In this document: positions 4,859 to 13,504 of the stretch, piece after piece
Position numbering within the stretch: the first letter of the stretch is position 1
Layout of the letters: every line of letters begins with the position of its first letter
Translations under genes and position numbers: made by a program
The notes under the pieces: model-generated
The model's input: only the letters and a program-made list of their open reading frames with translations
What the model was told of the DNA's origin: nothing
The model's database searches: none
IMG/VR virus record: IMGVR_UViG_3300043099_000440
Span: 1 to 25,279 of that record
Origin: a virus
Strand: one strand, 5' to 3'
Length of the DNA stretch: 25,279 nucleotides

Positions 4859-5611
4859 ATGGCAAACATAACACGGAAGTGGAAACGCTTCCTTGCAGTA
4901 TCATGCAGCCACGGCTTCATGGCCGACCAGGCTGTACTCAAGGAAGTCCTCCGCTTTCGTGATCGATGGAAGCCGGACACGGTGTTGCATCTTGGTGACG
5001 CCATCGACATGACGTGCCTGCGCAGTGGGGCTATCACTAACGACAGTCACGACGCTACCGTTGACCCAGAGGCTGATCTCAACGACGGGCTCGCGTTCAT
5101 CTCCGCACTGCGCCCCCAGCACTACCTGCTCGGCAACCATGAGGCCCGGCTGGTCACGCTGATGAGTCACCCTAAAGCGATCATCTCTGCACTAGCGACT
5201 CGCGTGTACCATCAGATCCACGACCGAGCCAAGTCGATCAAGTGCAAGGTGTACGATTACAAGCTCAAGACTGGCTTCGTTGGTCTTGGCGACGCTCTCT
5301 TTCAGCATGGCTATCTGCACAGTGAGAATGCCTTGCGTGATTCCGCAGAGCGTATGTGCCACGGACGGTACACCAAGCTTGTCATGGGGCATATCCACCG
5401 TGTACAAATCGCTGAAGGTCGGCGTATTAAAGGTGTCACTGGCTACTCTGTTGGGTGGCTCGGAGATCCAGAAATGGCTGGCTATGCGGAGAATAGGATT
5501 GCAACCACCGCTTGGAGCAGAGGCTGGGCGTGGGGCGAATATACTGACAACGAGACAATTGTATGGCTGACAAAAGAACTAAAGGACGGAAGCTTCAAGC
5601 TGCCCCTGTAG
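4859..5611 (+). CDS. Calcineurin-like metallophosphoesterase
   Basis: A 250-residue protein with the metallophosphoesterase signature: GDAID at 46-50, GNHE at 92-95, a downstream FQHG at 148-151 and GHIH at 177-180. These supply the Asp, Asn and His ligands of a two-metal centre that cleaves phosphate mono- or diesters. The first motif, normally DxH, reads SCSHG at 15-19, so the usual Asp is replaced by Cys. Phage relatives with a GCxHG-type first motif exist as far as I recall, so this need not mean inactivity. The substrate cannot be told from sequence; nucleic-acid or nucleotide processing is likely. It is the first gene after the virion block and overlaps the next gene by 49 bases. No signal peptide, so cytoplasmic. 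Confidence 0.85.
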   Translation: MANITRKWKRFLAVSCSHGFMADQAVLKEVLRFRDRWKPDTVLHLGDAIDMTCLRSGAITNDSHDATVDPEADLNDGLAFISALRPQHYLLGNHEARLVTLMSHPKAIISALATRVYHQIHDRAKSIKCKVYDYKLKTGFVGLGDALFQHGYLHSENALRDSAERMCHGRYTKLVMGHIHRVQIAEGRRIKGVTGYSVGWLGDPEMAGYAENRIATTAWSRGWAWGEYTDNETIVWLTKELKDGSFKLPL

Positions 5612-7524: not shown

Positions 7525-7709
7525 GATAAATGCAAAATTATGACGAAACAACAAATTACAGACAACGTGCAGCGCAGAATGGCTTCATACAACAAGTTAT
7601 TGGGCCAAAAGGAAATTACAGAGTTTCAATATGTTGAGATGGCTTATCGTATGCTTGATTACTGGATGAGTGTAATTCGCGATCGGATGGCGTGACACTG
7701 AGAGAGACT
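7502..7709 (+). repeat. 21-base imperfect direct repeat pair (7502-7522 and 7689-7709)
   Basis: The two copies both begin GGCGTGACACTG and end GAGAGACT. They differ at one base (G at 7514, A at 7701) and bracket the 51-residue ORF at 7540-7695. The first copy ends the 28-residue ORF; the second covers the stop of the 51-residue ORF. The repeated sequence therefore marks the end of two successive small genes, as if one cassette was inserted or duplicated by recombination at this sequence. Confidence 0.75.
7540..7695 (+). CDS. Small hypothetical protein (51 aa)
   Basis: 51 residues beginning MTKQQITDNVQRRMASYNKL, with a helical, aromatic- and Met-rich second half (YVEMAYRMLDYWMSVIRDRM). No family is recognised. 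A helical, amphipathic small protein fits phage accessory or loader subunits, but that is speculation. AT-rich DNA like the following gene. No Shine-Dalgarno motif (GCAAAATT before ATG). It is bracketed by the two 21-base repeats and its stop overlaps a possible GTG start of the next gene. Confidence 0.5.
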   Translation: MTKQQITDNVQRRMASYNKLLGQKEITEFQYVEMAYRMLDYWMSVIRDRMA

Positions 7710-7757
7710 TCTGCACCAATGCAGGGGCGCGACTGCACAACGCGCACATATTACAAA

Positions 7758-8030
7758 ATGAAAACAGATAGAGAGCGACTGCAAGAAATAGCCTTTCAAG
7801 CAAGTGACGGCACGTATTTTATTACAGATAATTACGCGGATGAGTTGTTGAAAATATATGGAGGCTGTGGACTTGCAACAGTACTTAGAGAGTTTGTAAA
7901 GGCGGCAGACTGGCTATCCGCAAACCCAAAAAGGCGGAAAACCAAGCAGGCAATGTCACGCTTTTTAACAGTCTGGTTATTTAGATATTGGAATTTTAAA
8001 AGCGGACGCCTCTTTAAGAAAAAACAATAA
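7758..8030 (+). CDS. Replication-accessory-like protein, small paralogue (90 aa)
   Basis: 90 residues from ATG 7758; a longer form could begin at GTG 7692, which overlaps the preceding stop. The C-terminal motif DWLSANPKRRKTKQAMSRFL (51-70), followed by TVWL, matches the W-L-x-A-N-P-x-x-R-K-T-K...R-[FY]-L-x-x-W-L pattern. I associate that pattern with phage replication-initiator or helicase-loader-type proteins. The next gene carries the same motif and aligns over about 70 residues (DG..., then Leu...Tyr-Gly, then the WL motif). The two are therefore paralogues, this one lacking the N-terminal part. Location directly upstream of the helicase supports a helicase-loading or primosome role (inference). 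Confidence 0.65.
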   Translation: MKTDRERLQEIAFQASDGTYFITDNYADELLKIYGGCGLATVLREFVKAADWLSANPKRRKTKQAMSRFLTVWLFRYWNFKSGRLFKKKQ

Positions 8031-8593
8031 TGAACATCAGCATCAATATAACATACGTCAGTGGAACAAAAGTCGAACTGGTCGTCCCACTTGAAGAGCC
8101 GGCACAACTCGTCAGCCAACCAGAGTCACCTGTGACACCAGAGCCTGTGCAGCCTGCGCAGGACTTGGCTGACGCGATGGCGGGTCTGCCTGTGCTTACC
8201 GACGAAGAGCGTGAATTGCTCAAGCCATCCGGCAGACGGTACACGTCCGTGCAAGATATGGTCGATGAGCTTAAGCAAGACCCCGAGTCAGGCAAGACGA
8301 TGAGCCTGTACGACATCACGTACGTCACCCAAGACGGCAAGGAGTGGAAGGTGCCACCGGGTTTGATGAAGGACTTGATCATCATCTACGGCGAGAAGAC
8401 CGTCGAGCAAGAGCTGTGGAAGGCCCACGCCTGGCTCGAAGCTGACCCTTTACGACGCAAGACCAAGCGCGGCATGGGGCGCTACCTTAACGGGTGGCTC
8501 AGTCGTGCATCGTCAATGGTGCGTGCACCGATTAAAACCCTACTCAAGCGCGAGAGCTTACTCACCACAAATGGAACACAAGAAAGCTGGTAG
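8030..8593 (+). CDS. Replication-accessory-like protein, long paralogue (187 aa)
   Basis: 187 residues. The N-terminal ~45 residues are Pro/Gln/Glu-rich and linker-like. A middle part (about 46-110) contains LTDEERELLKPSGRRYTS and a short beta region (YDITYVTQDGKEWKVPPG). The C-terminal HAWLEADPLRRKTKRGMGR (133-151), then YLNGWL, is the same motif as in the 90-residue upstream protein. This C-terminal motif is shared by many phage replication organiser or loader proteins in my recollection. It starts in a TAATG overlap and ends 23 bases inside the helicase N-terminal gene, so the two are translationally linked. A helicase loader or initiator accessory is the most reasonable guess; not proven. 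Confidence 0.65.
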   Translation: MNISINITYVSGTKVELVVPLEEPAQLVSQPESPVTPEPVQPAQDLADAMAGLPVLTDEERELLKPSGRRYTSVQDMVDELKQDPESGKTMSLYDITYVTQDGKEWKVPPGLMKDLIIIYGEKTVEQELWKAHAWLEADPLRRKTKRGMGRYLNGWLSRASSMVRAPIKTLLKRESLLTTNGTQESW

Positions 8594-9278
8594 ACGCAGG
8601 CCGGTGGAGTTGCCACCTGACACGGTTGTGCCAACCGCGACCGAGGCTGAGCGTGGGATAGCGTCTATTGCGCTCAATCACCCCGAGGTGTTCCTGCATC
8701 ACATCTCGGAGAAGAACTTCAAGGTGGCGGACATCTTTGAGCCGCTCAGTCACCGGGTGTGCGAGATCATCTTGCAGCAGCAGAGCCGCAACGCTTCGTC
8801 AGAAATTCGTGTGGTTTTTGAGAAGGTCCGTGAGACATTGCCGACAACCCAGTTCCATGAACTTAGCGAACTCTACACACTCATGCCCATTGCCGGCGCG
8901 ATTGGCGAGCTTATCGAGATCGTCAAATCCACCGCCAAGCGGCGCACCTTGCAGCATGTGGCGCACGAGGTGCTCATGGCGATTGGCGACTCGGCTGTGC
9001 AAACGCCGGAGTTGCTCAGTGATGTCGTGATGAAGGTGGAGAGCTTGTCTCGGGAGCTTGCTCCACCAAAGGTGATGGACACGAAGGCGCTGCTTATCAA
9101 CGCACTCAATCGTTACGAAACCGGGGATGACGAGTCTATGCGGATAAAAACAGGCTACTCTGCTATCGACAACATCTGTCCTATACGATACGGAGACTTT
9201 GTTGTCATCGGCGGTGAAACCAAATCTGGCAAAACCATGCTGGCACTCAACATTATTGCAAATCTAATAAATGAATAA
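8571..9278 (+). CDS. Replicative DnaB-type helicase, N-terminal half with Walker A (split gene)
   Basis: 235 residues from ATG 8571 (MEHKKAGRRRP). The N-terminal domain is recognisable from TATEAERGIASIALNHPEVF, the usual 'S.EAE..vLG..l' start of DnaB, followed by a helical bundle and linker to about residue 170. The RecA-like domain begins with IKTGYSAIDNICPIRYGDFVVIGG, and Walker A GGETKSGKT is at 214-222. The frame stops 13 residues later (MLALNIIANLINE), where DnaB normally continues to the 'SLEMP' motif. The missing part (SLEMP, Walker B, H3, H4) is encoded at 12920-13504. The combined length (429) and the spacing from GKT to SLEMP (22 versus about 21 in E. coli DnaB) show that the two ORFs together make one helicase. 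The stop overlaps the next start (ATGAATAA). Confidence 0.85.
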   Translation: MEHKKAGRRRPVELPPDTVVPTATEAERGIASIALNHPEVFLHHISEKNFKVADIFEPLSHRVCEIILQQQSRNASSEIRVVFEKVRETLPTTQFHELSELYTLMPIAGAIGELIEIVKSTAKRRTLQHVAHEVLMAIGDSAVQTPELLSDVVMKVESLSRELAPPKVMDTKALLINALNRYETGDDESMRIKTGYSAIDNICPIRYGDFVVIGGETKSGKTMLALNIIANLINE

Positions 9279-9585
9279 ACTAGTAAACCTTACACCTCAC
9301 GACATTACCATCACTGGTTACGGCGTGATCGAGCCGAGCGGATACTCGGTTAAAGTACACTCACACCTCAGCAAAGTCGCAGACGTTGATGGTGTACCCA
9401 TAATGTGCTGTAAAGACGCTAAGGTGAGCAACCTGCCTGACCCTGTGAAGGGAATCCTTTACATCGTCCCTGGCTATGTGCGTACTGCACTACCCAACAG
9501 GACAGATTTGGCTAGTCCAACAAAACTTATCCGTGACGGAGCTGGCAAGATTGTCGGCTGCGGGGCGCTTGAAATTAACCCATAA
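9271..9585 (+). CDS. Conserved phage protein of unknown function (104 aa)
   Basis: 104 residues starting MNKLVNLTPHDITI, with the later motifs PSGYSVKV, LPDPVKGILYIVPGYV, RTDLASPT and IRDGAGKIVGC. This 'NLTPH...PSG...GLP.P..G..YIV...V..A...R.D...P....RD..G.I.GC' pattern is a widespread phage and plasmid protein whose function I do not know. The protein is beta-rich with no membrane segment. Its ATG overlaps the stop of the helicase N-terminal half in the eight-base junction ATGAATAA. It is the first gene of the 3.6-kb block that separates the two helicase halves. Confidence 0.75.
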   Translation: MNKLVNLTPHDITITGYGVIEPSGYSVKVHSHLSKVADVDGVPIMCCKDAKVSNLPDPVKGILYIVPGYVRTALPNRTDLASPTKLIRDGAGKIVGCGALEINP

Positions 9586-9586
9586 T

Positions 9587-9973
9587 ATGAAAAAAAAGAA
9601 AGAAAGACACTACAATGTACCGTCTCAAGTAGAGATGCTTCCAGCAAGGAGTGCGCCTAAGGGCATGAAGGAAGCATTGAATAAGGTTTTAGACGACAGA
9701 AAGCTTCATATTCTTACTAGGACTCGGCGAAGAAATCAATTCTACGCCATTGCAAAAGAGGAGCAGTGGTTAGAGAGAAAGCGGAGAACGGATCAGTGGG
9801 TTAAGAACGCGGACAATAGCATCATTGAGACGCCAGAGAATAAACGGCGCAACCTCATCAAAGCAGCTTGGAGAAACATAATCAGAAAAGAAAACAATGA
9901 AAAAAGAATTGCACTACAATTGGGAAATGCAGAAGTACAGGAGCACTCCGGGTCTATCGAAGCACAGCCTTGA
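9587..9973 (+). CDS. Hypothetical basic protein (128 aa)
   Basis: 128 residues, very basic (starts MKKKKERHYNVPSQVE; many Arg/Lys, for example RTRRRNQFY and KRRNLIKAAWRNIIRKE). Likely an all-helical nucleic-acid-binding protein; the family is not recognised. The start at 9587 directly follows the upstream stop (CATAATATG) with no Shine-Dalgarno motif; an in-frame upstream extension exists but would overlap the previous gene heavily. The last 77 bases overlap the nuclease gene in another frame. Confidence 0.55.
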   Translation: MKKKKERHYNVPSQVEMLPARSAPKGMKEALNKVLDDRKLHILTRTRRRNQFYAIAKEEQWLERKRRTDQWVKNADNSIIETPENKRRNLIKAAWRNIIRKENNEKRIALQLGNAEVQEHSGSIEAQP

Positions 9974-10676
9974 CTCGTTTGCAGTCTGCCCGGCGTACTA
10001 CAAGTGGAAGGAGCGTCAAGAATGGAAGCCTTCACGCGAGATGGAGCTTGGCACGCTTGTCCACAGCTTGGCTCTTGAGGGGCGCTGTGAGTACGCTATT
10101 GCTCCAGCCTGTGATCGTCGCACTAAGGAGGGCAAGCTCATCTGGGAGAACTTCTGCCAGGCTAACATCGGTAAGGTCATCCTCAACGAGGACGAAGGGG
10201 CGCGTGTAGAAGGTGCCTGCGCGGCTGTGGAGCCGTTGCTTGAGATGGTGACAGCAGCGAAGATCATCGAGGCGTCCATGTTCTGGGAACGTGATGGTGT
10301 GCAGTGCAAGGGCCGGCCGGACATGATCACGGAGATCAAAGGTCGTCCAGCAATCGTAGATCTAAAGACGACGAGCGATTGGTCTAAGTTCGACCATAAG
10401 TTCTTTGGCTTTGGCTACGACAAGCAAGCTGCTTGGTACACCTACGGTCTTGAGCAGATCACCGGCCAAGAGGACATCGACTTTTACTTCCTAGTCGTGG
10501 ACATGCAGGCACCTCACTTGAGCCAGTGGGTGAAGGCGTCAACCGAGTTGATTGATTTGGCCAACGACCAGTTGGACGTGACTTTATCGCAGTACAAGCT
10601 GTGTCTTGACCAGGATGTATGGCCCGGTCCACCCACAATGCGCGTGATGCTGCCAAGAAGATGGGAGGAAGCATGA
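9897..10676 (+). CDS. Exodeoxyribonuclease VIII/RecE-like PD-(D/E)XK nuclease
   Basis: 259 residues. Order of nuclease motifs: LSKHSLDSFAVCPAYYKW (20-37), the 'S.S.....CP..y' start of RecE/RecB-type domains; LGTLVHSLALE with His56; KGRPDMI with Asp142; IVDLKTT with Asp155 and Lys157; and YDKQAAWY (174-181), the Gln-containing helix. This matches the 'PDDEXK-like, exodeoxyribonuclease 8' family, which resects 5' strands to give 3' overhangs for phage recombination by single-strand annealing or invasion. No annealase of the RecT/Beta type is recognised next to it; the OB-fold protein at 6173 may take that place. ATGA overlap with the next gene. Located in the block between the helicase halves. 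Confidence 0.85.
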   Translation: MKKELHYNWEMQKYRSTPGLSKHSLDSFAVCPAYYKWKERQEWKPSREMELGTLVHSLALEGRCEYAIAPACDRRTKEGKLIWENFCQANIGKVILNEDEGARVEGACAAVEPLLEMVTAAKIIEASMFWERDGVQCKGRPDMITEIKGRPAIVDLKTTSDWSKFDHKFFGFGYDKQAAWYTYGLEQITGQEDIDFYFLVVDMQAPHLSQWVKASTELIDLANDQLDVTLSQYKLCLDQDVWPGPPTMRVMLPRRWEEA

Positions 10677-11008
10677 TCGTTCGACCTAAAGATTTTCTGT
10701 ATGACTTTGATGATCAGCAAAAAACTCACAAAGAGCTTATAGAGTGGGGATGGACTGAAGAGCAAGTTAACGACTATTTATCGGAACGCTCATTCATTAA
10801 AGTCAGAGGATTTTTCAATGACATACACTCACTGTGCTTTGGCTGCGGTGAAAGCTTAAAGGCTCCGCTGGTAATGTGGAACGGCACTCACGAACATCTT
10901 GTAGAGAAAGAAAAGCAAATCTGGATGCATCGTAAATGTTGTGAAAACATGATTGCAGGATTAACCAACGATGTTGAGCAGTTGAAGCGAGAGGAGGCAC
11001 AACCATGA
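10673..11008 (+). CDS. Small zinc-finger-like hypothetical protein (111 aa)
   Basis: 111 residues from ATG 10673, preceded by GGGAGGAAGC, a good ribosome-binding site. The first half has a helix (KTHKELIEWGWTEEQVNDYL). The second half contains CFGCGE and WMHRKCCE, a CxxC plus HxxC arrangement typical of a treble-clef zinc site, then a C-terminal acidic helix. Function unknown. ATGA overlaps on both sides tie it into the operon. DNA is AT-richer than the nuclease gene before it. Confidence 0.65.
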   Translation: MIVRPKDFLYDFDDQQKTHKELIEWGWTEEQVNDYLSERSFIKVRGFFNDIHSLCFGCGESLKAPLVMWNGTHEHLVEKEKQIWMHRKCCENMIAGLTNDVEQLKREEAQP

Positions 11009-11247
11009 GCGACTGGGTACTCATCCGCCGTACTAACGTGCTGCAAAACGTGGAGCTTCCGCGTCCTAAGAAGACGCAGGACGTCATCTGCATCGGCCCG
11101 AAAGACGCACTCGGCTCGAAGATGGAGCAACTTATGTTGTTGCCGGAGAATCAATCGACGGATCTTATCGAGGTGAAGTATGTGTTGGAGCCGTACACCG
11201 GGCAGCACTCGCACACTTCAGCTAGGCCTGGGAATGGAACACGCTAA
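11005..11247 (+). CDS. Hypothetical protein (80 aa)
   Basis: 80 residues, family not recognised, starting MSDWVLIRRTNVLQNVELPRP. It is a mixed beta-rich domain of about 70 residues with a polar C-terminal tail. It has a good ribosome-binding site (GAGAGGAGGC, 13 bases before ATG) and an ATGA overlap with the upstream stop. It is the last gene before a short non-coding gap that carries a promoter-like sequence and the HNH endonuclease. Confidence 0.6.
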   Translation: MSDWVLIRRTNVLQNVELPRPKKTQDVICIGPKDALGSKMEQLMLLPENQSTDLIEVKYVLEPYTGQHSHTSARPGNGTR

Positions 11248-11266
11248 TGTGGATAAAACAAAACGG

Positions 11267-11294
11267 TTGACATTTGTCAGTTGTTTTATAAATT
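11267..11294 (+). promoter_or_regulatory. Sigma-70-like promoter in front of the HNH gene
   Basis: A perfect -35 hexamer TTGACA (11267-11272), a 16-base spacer and TAAATT (11289-11294) as a -10 (4 of 6 matches); TATAAA at 11287-11292 is an alternative. With the usual 6-8 base distance the transcript would begin at about 11301, the HNH start codon itself, giving a leaderless mRNA. No ribosome-binding site precedes that ATG, which fits. Confidence 0.55.
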
Positions 11295-11300
11295 GAAGTC

Positions 11301-11723
11301 ATGAGTTGCATACCAGACATCAAGACTACAAACGAAATGTATAACTTATATCTTGAGGGATACAGCATTTCAAAGGTTGGAAGAGCATTTGGTGTATCGC
11401 GGCAAACTGTCTTTAAAAGATTCAGTCGGGCAGGGAAAAAGTTGCGATCAAAAACACTTCTTCCGTTTATGATTTTTAATGGCAAGAAATATACTTTGAG
11501 AAAAGTTGGCTATATGGGCTGCACAGATGGATGTCGATCTCTTATGCATAGGGATATTTGGATTCACCACAACGGGCCAATACCAGATGATTACGACATT
11601 CATCACATCAATGGCGATAAAACAGATAATCGGATTGAAAATTTAGAGCTTTTGACAAAGTCGGAGCATAGCCGCAGACACGGGTTTAAAGGAAATCAAT
11701 ACATTAAAAACAGAGATAAATGA
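11301..11723 (+). CDS. HNH (homing-type) endonuclease
   Basis: 140 residues. The N-terminal helix-turn-helix (MYNLYLEGYSISKVGRAFGV, then SRQTVFKRF, 13-41) is for DNA binding. The C-terminal HNH core has LMHRDIWIHHNG (81-92), YDIHHINGDKTDNRIENL (98-115) with the catalytic His-His pair at 101-102 and Asn110, and SEHSRRHG at the end. This is the common phage HNH_3-type free-standing endonuclease, which nicks or cuts specific DNA and spreads by homing. It is AT-rich compared with neighbours, has its own promoter-like sequence, and lies in the block that separates the two helicase halves. It ends in an ATGA overlap with the alternative frame at 11720. Probable mobile element, and a candidate cause of the split. 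Confidence 0.85.
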   Translation: MSCIPDIKTTNEMYNLYLEGYSISKVGRAFGVSRQTVFKRFSRAGKKLRSKTLLPFMIFNGKKYTLRKVGYMGCTDGCRSLMHRDIWIHHNGPIPDDYDIHHINGDKTDNRIENLELLTKSEHSRRHGFKGNQYIKNRDK

Positions 11724-12901
11724 AACCATGCACAATAATACTTCCATCGTCCCTTATGTCAGCCTTTGCAGTGGATACGAAGGCATCGGACTTGGACTCC
11801 ACCGCTATATCCCAAATCTTCGCTGCATTGCTTACTGCGAGAGGGAAGCATTTGCCATCGCAAACTTGGTTGCGAAAATGGAAAACGGACTACTGGACGC
11901 GGCTCCTGTTTTCACGGATGTCACAACTTTCCCTTGGGAACAATATGCTCCATACATGGCTGGAGGGATTCTTTCTTTCGGATGGCCTTGCCAACCAGTC
12001 TCTTGCGCTGGAAAACGAAAAGCCACAGAAGACGAACGATGGTTGTTTGACATCATTGCAGATGGAATTTCCATTATGCGCCCAGGACTCATCTTCGCAG
12101 AGAATGTTGAAGGACTCTTGTCAGCTAAAATGCCTAACGGATCATTGGTATTCGCCCATTGCGTCGATAGACTGGAAAGCCTACATTACAAAGTTGCGGC
12201 AGGCATATTCAGCGCGGCTGAATGCGGCGCGCCTCACCAGCGCAAGCGAGTGTTTATCTTGGCCCACCGCTGCGGCGAGGGATTACAAGGGGACATCGCC
12301 AGGATATTTATTCAGGGCGGATGGCAAGAGCAGGGTGGATCAGTTGCCGGTTGCAGTGGATCAAGCGGAAGCGGGGAACTGGCCGACTCCAACGGTACAA
12401 GAAGCGGGCAAGATTGGGAATCAAGCGAACCACGGACAACTAGCGTTAAGCAATCACCCAGCATTGAGGGGCGAGGTGACAAGAGAGAAGTTCGAGAAGG
12501 GCAAGCATGGCCCAGCCGCCCTGGACAACCCCAACACGCATGGGAGCCGCCCAGAGTCGTGGGCAACACCGAGAGCGGCAGACGCTGCTGGAGTGGACTA
12601 CCAGTACGATCAGGGAAATCATGCGAAGCCCCGGTTGATGTTGCCGGGACAGGTGAAAGCATGGGCAACGCCGACGGCGCGGGATCACAAGAGCGGTCGC
12701 GGCAACGAGGCGCGGGAGTACAGCGAGCTCACGCCGATGGTGGAACGGACGCAGAGCGGCAAGCTCAACCCGCGCTGGGTGGAGACGTTGATGGGCTTAC
12801 CAGTGGGGTGGACGATGCCCAGTTGTGTATCACCTGTGACAATCGCACCGACGAGTTGCGCCTCCTTGGCAACGGAGTCGTTCCGGCTACAGCAGCATTA
12901 G
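11720..12901 (+). CDS. Overlapping-frame WPTP-repeat protein (393 aa) within the methyltransferase gene
   Basis: Open for 393 residues in a frame different from the methyltransferase and covering almost all of it. It starts in an ATGA overlap with the HNH stop. The C-terminal half looks like genuine protein. Four related units lie at 181 (WPTAAARD), 221 (WPTPTVQE), 281 (WATPRAAD) and 315 (WATPTARD), followed by KLNPRWVETLMGLPVGWT (348-365). I know this WPTPxAxD ... LNPxWVExLMGxPxGWT pattern from phage methyltransferase-associated proteins. SQTWLRKWK (47-55) and LRQAYSARLN (159-168) also match my memory of that family. The N-terminal half is Ser/Leu-rich and may only shadow the conserved methyltransferase motifs. 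Either a true overprinted gene or a recurrent shadow; function unknown. Confidence 0.5.
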   Translation: MKPCTIILPSSLMSAFAVDTKASDLDSTAISQIFAALLTARGKHLPSQTWLRKWKTDYWTRLLFSRMSQLSLGNNMLHTWLEGFFLSDGLANQSLALENEKPQKTNDGCLTSLQMEFPLCAQDSSSQRMLKDSCQLKCLTDHWYSPIASIDWKAYITKLRQAYSARLNAARLTSASECLSWPTAAARDYKGTSPGYLFRADGKSRVDQLPVAVDQAEAGNWPTPTVQEAGKIGNQANHGQLALSNHPALRGEVTREKFEKGKHGPAALDNPNTHGSRPESWATPRAADAAGVDYQYDQGNHAKPRLMLPGQVKAWATPTARDHKSGRGNEAREYSELTPMVERTQSGKLNPRWVETLMGLPVGWTMPSCVSPVTIAPTSCASLATESFRLQQH

Positions 12902-12951
12902 CTTTTACCACACTACTAAATGAACAAAGGAATACTCGTCATCTCGCTTGA
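11728..12951 (+). CDS. DNA (cytosine-5-)-methyltransferase
   Basis: 407 residues with the C5-methyltransferase motifs in order: motif I VSLCSGYEGIGLGL (11-24), motif IV GWPCQPVSCAG with catalytic Cys88, motif VI ENV (125-127), motif VIII QRKRVFILA (171-179) and motif X LLGNGVVPATAALAF (379-393). It transfers methyl groups from S-adenosylmethionine to cytosine C5. Between motifs VIII and X (about 180-375) the chain is Gly/Ser/Arg/Glu-rich with ELADSNG, VGNTESG and MGNADGAG units. These three are exactly what the WPTP/WATP units of the overlapping frame give when shifted by one base. No restriction enzyme is seen nearby, so it is an orphan methylase, perhaps for anti-restriction. The last 32 bases run into the helicase C-terminal gene (LLNEQRNTRHLA). 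Confidence 0.85.
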   Translation: MHNNTSIVPYVSLCSGYEGIGLGLHRYIPNLRCIAYCEREAFAIANLVAKMENGLLDAAPVFTDVTTFPWEQYAPYMAGGILSFGWPCQPVSCAGKRKATEDERWLFDIIADGISIMRPGLIFAENVEGLLSAKMPNGSLVFAHCVDRLESLHYKVAAGIFSAAECGAPHQRKRVFILAHRCGEGLQGDIARIFIQGGWQEQGGSVAGCSGSSGSGELADSNGTRSGQDWESSEPRTTSVKQSPSIEGRGDKREVREGQAWPSRPGQPQHAWEPPRVVGNTESGRRCWSGLPVRSGKSCEAPVDVAGTGESMGNADGAGSQERSRQRGAGVQRAHADGGTDAERQAQPALGGDVDGLTSGVDDAQLCITCDNRTDELRLLGNGVVPATAALAFTTLLNEQRNTRHLA

Positions 12952-13504
12952 GATGCCCGCGAACCAGATCATCGACCGACTCGTCGCCCGGTTGGGCAGC
13001 GTCAGCCTGCGCACCCTCGCTGAAGGGGCCAAGAACGAGCGTGACATCCGGGGCGTCCATAGTGCCATCCAGAAGCTCAATAGCAGCCGTTTGGTGGTGC
13101 GCGACGACCTGTACGACATCGCCAACATCTGCGCCACGGCCCGAGCTCTGGCGAAGAGCCCAGACGGACTAGGCGTACTGTTCGTCGATTACATCCAGCT
13201 TGTGCGCTGCGACCTCGGGAAGGACAGTAGCCGCGAGCGTGAGGTGGCTGAGGTTAGCCGTAGTTTGCGCTTACTTGGCATCGAATTAGGTTGCTTAGTT
13301 CTCAGCATTACGCAACTAAATGAGCAGGGCAAAGCTCGCGAAAGCCGTGCAATCGGACAAGATGCTACAGCCGTGATGGTTGTGAAGCTGTCTGATGACC
13401 CAGAGTTCCGCGAGATTGGCATACCCATCCAACGTAACGGCCCGTGTGGTGTAAGCACAAACTTGCGTTTCCACGGGAAAACCGCGACATTCCACAATGA
13501 ATAA
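12920..13504 (+). CDS. Replicative DnaB-type helicase, C-terminal half with Walker B (split gene)
   Basis: 194 residues that begin just where the other half stops: MNKGILVISLEMPANQIIDR carries the DnaB 'SLEMP' motif. Walker B VLFVDYIQL is at 86-94, motif H3 SITQLNEQGKARES at 129-142, and H4 QRNGPCG (the usual 'KQRNGPTG') at 171-177. All catalytic elements after Walker A are present, so this piece cannot hydrolyse ATP alone and needs the 8571-9278 product. A TAA stop directly precedes the ATG in frame, so no N-terminal extension is possible. It starts inside the methyltransferase gene (32-base overlap) and ends in ATGAATAA, the same eight-base stop/start junction that ends the N-terminal half. 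Probably both products assemble into a hexameric helicase. Confidence 0.85.
   Translation: MNKGILVISLEMPANQIIDRLVARLGSVSLRTLAEGAKNERDIRGVHSAIQKLNSSRLVVRDDLYDIANICATARALAKSPDGLGVLFVDYIQLVRCDLGKDSSREREVAEVSRSLRLLGIELGCLVLSITQLNEQGKARESRAIGQDATAVMVVKLSDDPEFREIGIPIQRNGPCGVSTNLRFHGKTATFHNE

Follow-up and report, generated by a model that had tools for sequence, protein, structure and literature searches.

A DnaB-type replicative helicase encoded by two conserved half-genes divided between Walker A and Walker B

The viral record IMGVR_UViG_3300043099_000440 from IMG/VR (25,279 nucleotides (nt), analysed over its full length and referred to below as the window) encodes a DnaB-type replicative helicase in two separate open reading frames (ORFs). 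The first, A, stops shortly after Walker A, while the second, B, carries Walker B and lies 3,641 nt further along the same strand. The split is real and conserved. It is shared across a lineage of uncultivated phages, in 77 distinct relatives of the window, which rules out chance. The two halves are composed as follows:

8571..9278, plus strand: half A, 235 amino acids (aa), comprising the DnaB N-terminal domain, the linker, the first core strand, Walker A and the P-loop helix
12920..13504, plus strand: half B, 194 aa, comprising the remaining RecA-type core with SLEMP (the catalytic Glu motif), Walker B, H3 and H4

As stated in the preliminary description of this DNA, each ORF has its own start and stop codon, and a TAA is located in frame immediately before the ATG of B. 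Half A carries the P-loop sequence GGETKSGKT followed by 13 residues (MLALNIIANLINE) and a TAA; an alternative in-frame GTG at 8505 would extend it to 257 aa. The N-terminus of B is MNKGILVISLEMP, and the motifs VDYIQL, ITQLN and IPIQRNG occur further downstream in its sequence. For the 54 different upstream contexts that were listed, the start codon of B is always ATG. A, the genes in the gap and B share one strand, with ends that overlap or abut, and may constitute a single operon with coupled translation.

Together, A and B cover the whole length of the DnaB family (PF03796, PHROG 19; structures from Geobacillus, Vibrio and E. coli), with the ATPase motifs in order. PHROG 19 (DnaB-like helicase) matches A over profile positions 154-377 (E-value 4.5e-16) and B over positions 381-580 (1.1e-33), i.e., end to end, and with the Pfam matches this bears out the initial proposal of one DnaB-type helicase in two complementary pieces. 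The Pfam DnaB_C profile aligns to B over positions 49-255 of 255 (3e-30) and weakly to A over positions 2-44 (0.0013, under the curated cut-off). On Geobacillus DnaB (2r6a), the profile of A corresponds to residues 11-227 (5.8e-11) and that of B to residues 233-439 (7.7e-29). The cut site is the turn after the P-loop helix, within about five residues; in single-chain structure models, A closes with a helix (220-234) and B opens with a strand (4-9). Foldseek ranks DnaB first for both models (B 1.5e-11, A 7.9e-5). Homology is hence found across the N-terminal domain, the linker and the RecA-type core. Walker A, the catalytic Glu motif, Walker B, the sensor Gln and the arginine finger are present by sequence in the split relatives, the residues being named after their usual roles in such helicases. 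The pair departs from the family in that it is not a single polypeptide, the coding sequence being divided over two genes after Walker A and before the strand of the catalytic Glu, and in that I, Y or F stands in place of the H4 lysine.

A first scan of IMG/VR with B as the query yielded 106 relatives, of which the best 80 were fetched as loci. Both halves were present in 73 of these 80 loci and split at the same turn in all 73; in the other seven, the sequence is cut off before A. All scans together provided 77 distinct A-to-B segments that are split (a rough comparison without gaps sorts them into 71 groups at 95%), with identities to the window down to 48% for A and 65% for B. The only two one-frame cases encountered in this count (L324 and L326) are ordinary, distant DnaBs, and five loci set aside as partial rows (L312-L315, L323) contain intact helicases too. 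Over the split segments the gap between A and B measures 1,323-3,785 nt, with a median of 2,076 nt.

Metagenome contigs can yield short ORFs through gene decay or assembly error, so that a damaged gene has to be considered as a source of the two halves. Across 47 sequences (the window plus 46 close relatives), the pairwise ratio of nonsynonymous to synonymous substitution rates (dN/dS) has a median of 0.053 in A and 0.040 in B, compared to 0.047-0.105 for three genes of the gap. The P-loop GGxxKxGKT is intact in all 83 distinct A sequences (82, plus L247), and SLEMP, VDY(I/L)QL, ITQLN and QRNG occur in all 66 B sequences. Misassembly and decay were rejected on the basis of these low dN/dS values, the intact motifs and the recurrent borders, and their probability is negligible. 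Indeed, neither the decay of one half nor the assembly join at a border that the preliminary description had raised was found: both halves are conserved in the relatives, and the borders are the same in 77 distinct DNA segments. Moreover, 18 of the 28 invariant columns in the A alignment fall within the last 54 residues of A, a piece that makes sense only together with B. Both halves are thus kept under selection in the relatives examined, and the two proteins probably must meet to build each engine.

The nearest intact relative found is a 432-aa helicase encoded on a 36-kb IMG/VR record (3300034012_001325, hereafter G001), which is 31% identical to the window over the A part and 42% over the B part. 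Compared with this sister, the ends of A and B fit, with at most a few residues missing, as would be expected if the halves were joined by an unrecognised route such as RNA or protein trans-splicing or ribosome bypassing. Several observations make such joining a very small probability. The tail of A beyond the P-loop helix is variable, its length after ALNIIAN ranging from two residues (LL) to about 28 among 82 distinct sequences, and so seems to behave as a free C-terminus would. B begins with an ATG, the end of A is followed directly by an overlapping or abutting gene in all 77 relatives, and the length and content of the gap vary. No Rfam family, group I and II introns included, reaches its gathering score in the window. 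Intein halves are absent from the inner ends, in agreement with the initial remark that the break holds no intein sequence; there is no room for them, because A ends shortly after ALNIIAN and B starts at a core strand.

The gap and its surroundings contain the following genes:

8030..8593, plus strand: gene upstream of A; in the sister phage, a homologue immediately precedes the intact helicase
9271..9585, plus strand: conserved gene of 104 aa that overlaps A at its end (matches PHROGs 30542 and 21731, both of unknown function)
9593..9973, plus strand: small gap ORF, found in 4 of 77 split relatives, no family match
9897..10676, plus strand: PD-(D/E)XK exonuclease (DUF3799, exonuclease VIII PHROG), present in the gaps of all 77 split relatives
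10676..11008, plus strand: small cysteine-rich protein, 5 of 77; homologue upstream of the helicase in the intact sister
11005..11247, plus strand: 80-aa gene, usually abutting or just before B, 73 of 77 by tblastn
11301..11723, plus strand: HNH endonuclease (Pfam/PHROG), present in the gap of the window alone
11720..12951, plus strand: C5 cytosine methyltransferase in two overlapping frames, 11720-12901 and 11728-12951

The 8030..8593 gene is a probable replication initiator, a function assigned from its position, as its product has no informative family match in Pfam or PHROG. By eye, a 112-aa ORF at 7692-8030 resembles the C-terminal part of this product, and weak repeats of the same C-terminal domain were seen in several relatives. 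The 104-aa gene adjoins A in all 77 split relatives, and this fixed position suggests a role with the helicase. Distances of the exonuclease correlate poorly with those of A and B in the close clade (r about 0.3), which suggests that this gene has been exchanged separately from A and B. DNA-modification genes vary in the slot between the 80-aa gene and B. The C5 methyltransferase, whose second frame overlaps the start of B in the window, is optional (18 of 77 split relatives), and in one locus a Mom-family gene occupies the slot beside B instead (L012:7270-8004).

Pfam and PHROG confirm the HNH endonuclease and the C5 methyltransferase that the preliminary description had recognised in the gap. 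It had further suggested that the endonuclease made the split, as mobE did in nrdA of Aeromonas phage Aeh1; this part was not supported. Homing endonucleases have split phage genes, according to PMC2988022, and the window does contain an HNH gene between A and B. However, the gaps of all 77 split relatives lack a match to this protein, and HNH_3 is absent from the gap in each of 14 long split records (it was found in two of them, outside the gap both times). Other genes are always present in the gap, and the HNH gene sits with the methyltransferase at its far end, beside B. That the HNH endonuclease, along with the methyltransferase, split a formerly intact helicase gene by inserting into it is therefore very unlikely. 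Since none of the 77 other gaps holds this HNH gene, it came late, together with the methyltransferase, into the slot next to B. An older homing gene that has since been lost is a further conceivable cause; homing families other than HNH were looked for through ten gap ORFs only. A rearrangement of gene order is the likelier origin of the split than homing.

This rearrangement is suggested by the intact sister, as several genes of the A-B gap sit upstream of the helicase in G001. There, the order is a 120-aa gene (resolvase-like by our reading), the cysteine-rich protein, two small MTDEQIN-type proteins, a deoxynucleoside monophosphate (dNMP) kinase, the initiator (the homologue of window 8030-8593), the helicase and the terminase. 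In the split phages, the 120-aa gene is found upstream of A (149 loci, with identities of 66-81%). Kinase relatives occur both in the A-B gap (54 loci) and after B (35 loci), as do relatives of the MTDEQIN-type proteins (45 loci in the gap and about 100 after B). Note that these locus counts include overlapping fetches. A piece made up of the initiator and A may thus have swapped places with the cassette, leaving B behind; alternatively, the cassette genes may have moved one by one.

A tree of the B region, built from 23 split and 12 intact sequences with a midpoint root and with the long branches of ordinary DnaBs flagged, separates the split from the intact sequences by one branch (99/96), and G001 joins the split group with a support of 100/99. 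The tree includes 12 of the 17 extracted single-ORF helicases; L319, L320, L325, L332 and L333 were omitted because the script did not locate the motif or the ORF had an unusually great length. With the root at the midpoint, the direction from intact to split is taken from parsimony. Further intact copies were sought with a fused A-B pattern, which gave at least 120 stretches, many of them ordinary phage helicases. Among seven loci inspected, L179 and L197 are of the intact sister type, and three candidates for fused copies (L155, L191, L175) were rejected as chance out-of-frame matches. A tighter pattern, which demands GKTMxALN and thus misses other spellings, returned four stretches, each of which belongs to the sister type. 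B has matches in 493 INPHARED records, every one with less than 60% identity, and six regions inspected (three via B and three via A, among the matches listed) contain one full-length helicase gene each. At the DNA level, the methyltransferase was the sole match of the region in INPHARED.

From the end-to-end homology, the conserved motifs, the selection on both halves, the single group formed by the split copies with the intact sister outside it, and the lack of other DnaB_C matches in the long records, we consider it quite probable that A and B form an unspliced, two-chain DnaB-type hexamer and that the split arose once from an intact helicase. Both chains would be expressed from one operon without splicing and would assemble into one active helicase. 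A would fold as the N-terminal collar domain and linker and would supply the first core strand, the P-loop (Walker A) and the P-loop helix, and B would contribute the remaining core with the catalytic Glu strand, Walker B, the sensor Gln and the arginine finger. A non-covalent pairing of A and B at the turn between the P-loop helix and the next strand would produce one protomer, and six A-B protomers would make up the ring. Three chains would then contribute to every ATP site: one A with its Walker A, the partner B with Walker B and Glu, and the B of the neighbouring protomer with the arginine finger. The single origin would go back to an intact helicase like that of G001, most likely when the order of the initiator and helicase genes was rearranged. 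The full set of particulars, i.e., three-chain ATP sites, A-B pairing as an extra and possibly regulated assembly step, an H4 altered throughout the lineage and an origin in a single rearrangement, all kept while identity fell to 48% and 65%, is one in which we place as much doubt as belief.

Several results weigh against a functional two-chain helicase. At the position of the H4 lysine, two residues ahead of the arginine finger, all 66 split B sequences carry I, Y or F. Most intact DnaBs examined have K-x-R in H4, and G001 retains the K. In 17 intact helicases, the H4 pattern returned K in 13, no match in three (L325, L328, L331) and an unrelated match in one (L319), although it seeks only K or R and is hence biased to K. 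The ATP site of A and B may therefore not work in the ordinary way, even if this lysine is not known as a universal requirement. Evolutionary distances of A and B correlate at r 0.976 over 66 loci, only slightly above the other pairs (0.955-0.962), and in the close clade the correlation of A with B equals that of A with the 104-aa gene at 9271 (0.803); the comparison with the terminase covered five and two loci only. The mean predicted local distance difference test (pLDDT) scores of the two models are middling (74.5 and 73.9), with the lowest confidence in the very segments that would complete each other (A 164-235; B 133-194). This could be expected if the halves need each other, and is equally typical of a poor model. 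The Foldseek structure matches of the B model have root-mean-square deviations of 9.5-13.4 Å. Note that both models are of single chains. Finally, the long records may be incomplete, which leaves room for a helicase of another kind.

The altered H4 could also fit a reading in which A and B form no helicase themselves and each modulate the host DnaB, either as additions to its ring or through contact with its loader; surfaces of DnaB are kept in both halves, and the replaced lysine makes an altered ATP site possible. A pure binder needs none of Walker A, the catalytic Glu motif, Walker B, H3 and the H4 arginine, all of which are kept. In addition, the intact sister helicase occupies the same place after the initiator, and such modulation is unlikely. 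All 14 long split records (38.9-43.9 kb) match DnaB_C at A and B and nowhere else, so that the continuous second helicase copy considered at the outset did not turn up. AAA_25 matched weakly in 11 of these 14 records, always at the P-loop of A and never above the cut-off, and Helicase_C was not found in them.

The two-chain DnaB-type helicase differs from its intact sister, with which it shares the upstream initiator gene, in that the G001 gene is uninterrupted, keeps the H4 lysine and has the cassette genes upstream. Genes broken by other genes are known as the split-intein fractured genes. A and B resemble these in the interruption, but lack intein sequences at both ends. The split genes for NrdA, gp43 and topoisomerase in T4-like phages (PMC2988022) come closest as precedents. 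They are likewise phage replication enzymes that reassemble from the products of two genes, and are tied there to homing endonucleases or an untranslated insert. In contrast, the gap in the helicase is a multi-gene block with no homing gene in the relatives, and the cut passes through the P-loop ATPase site of a ring motor. Split enzymes are already known in phages, but no split DnaB or replicative ring helicase divided between Walker A and Walker B was found in searches of an open-access library. If the pair works, a RecA-type ring motor can function with its chain broken in the core, within the nucleotide site itself. The pair would also offer a natural two-part helicase for combining mutant and wild-type halves in one ring, as well as a dated fused-versus-split pair for studying how the gene of an essential machine breaks without loss.

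Elsewhere in the window, positions 4859-5611 encode a calcineurin-like metallophosphoesterase. One split copy (L317) is located on a contig binned as Pedosphaera (Verrucomicrobiota), which gives a hint only of the host, and a flavin-type thymidylate synthase (Thy1) is present inside its A-B gap (L317:2827-3636).
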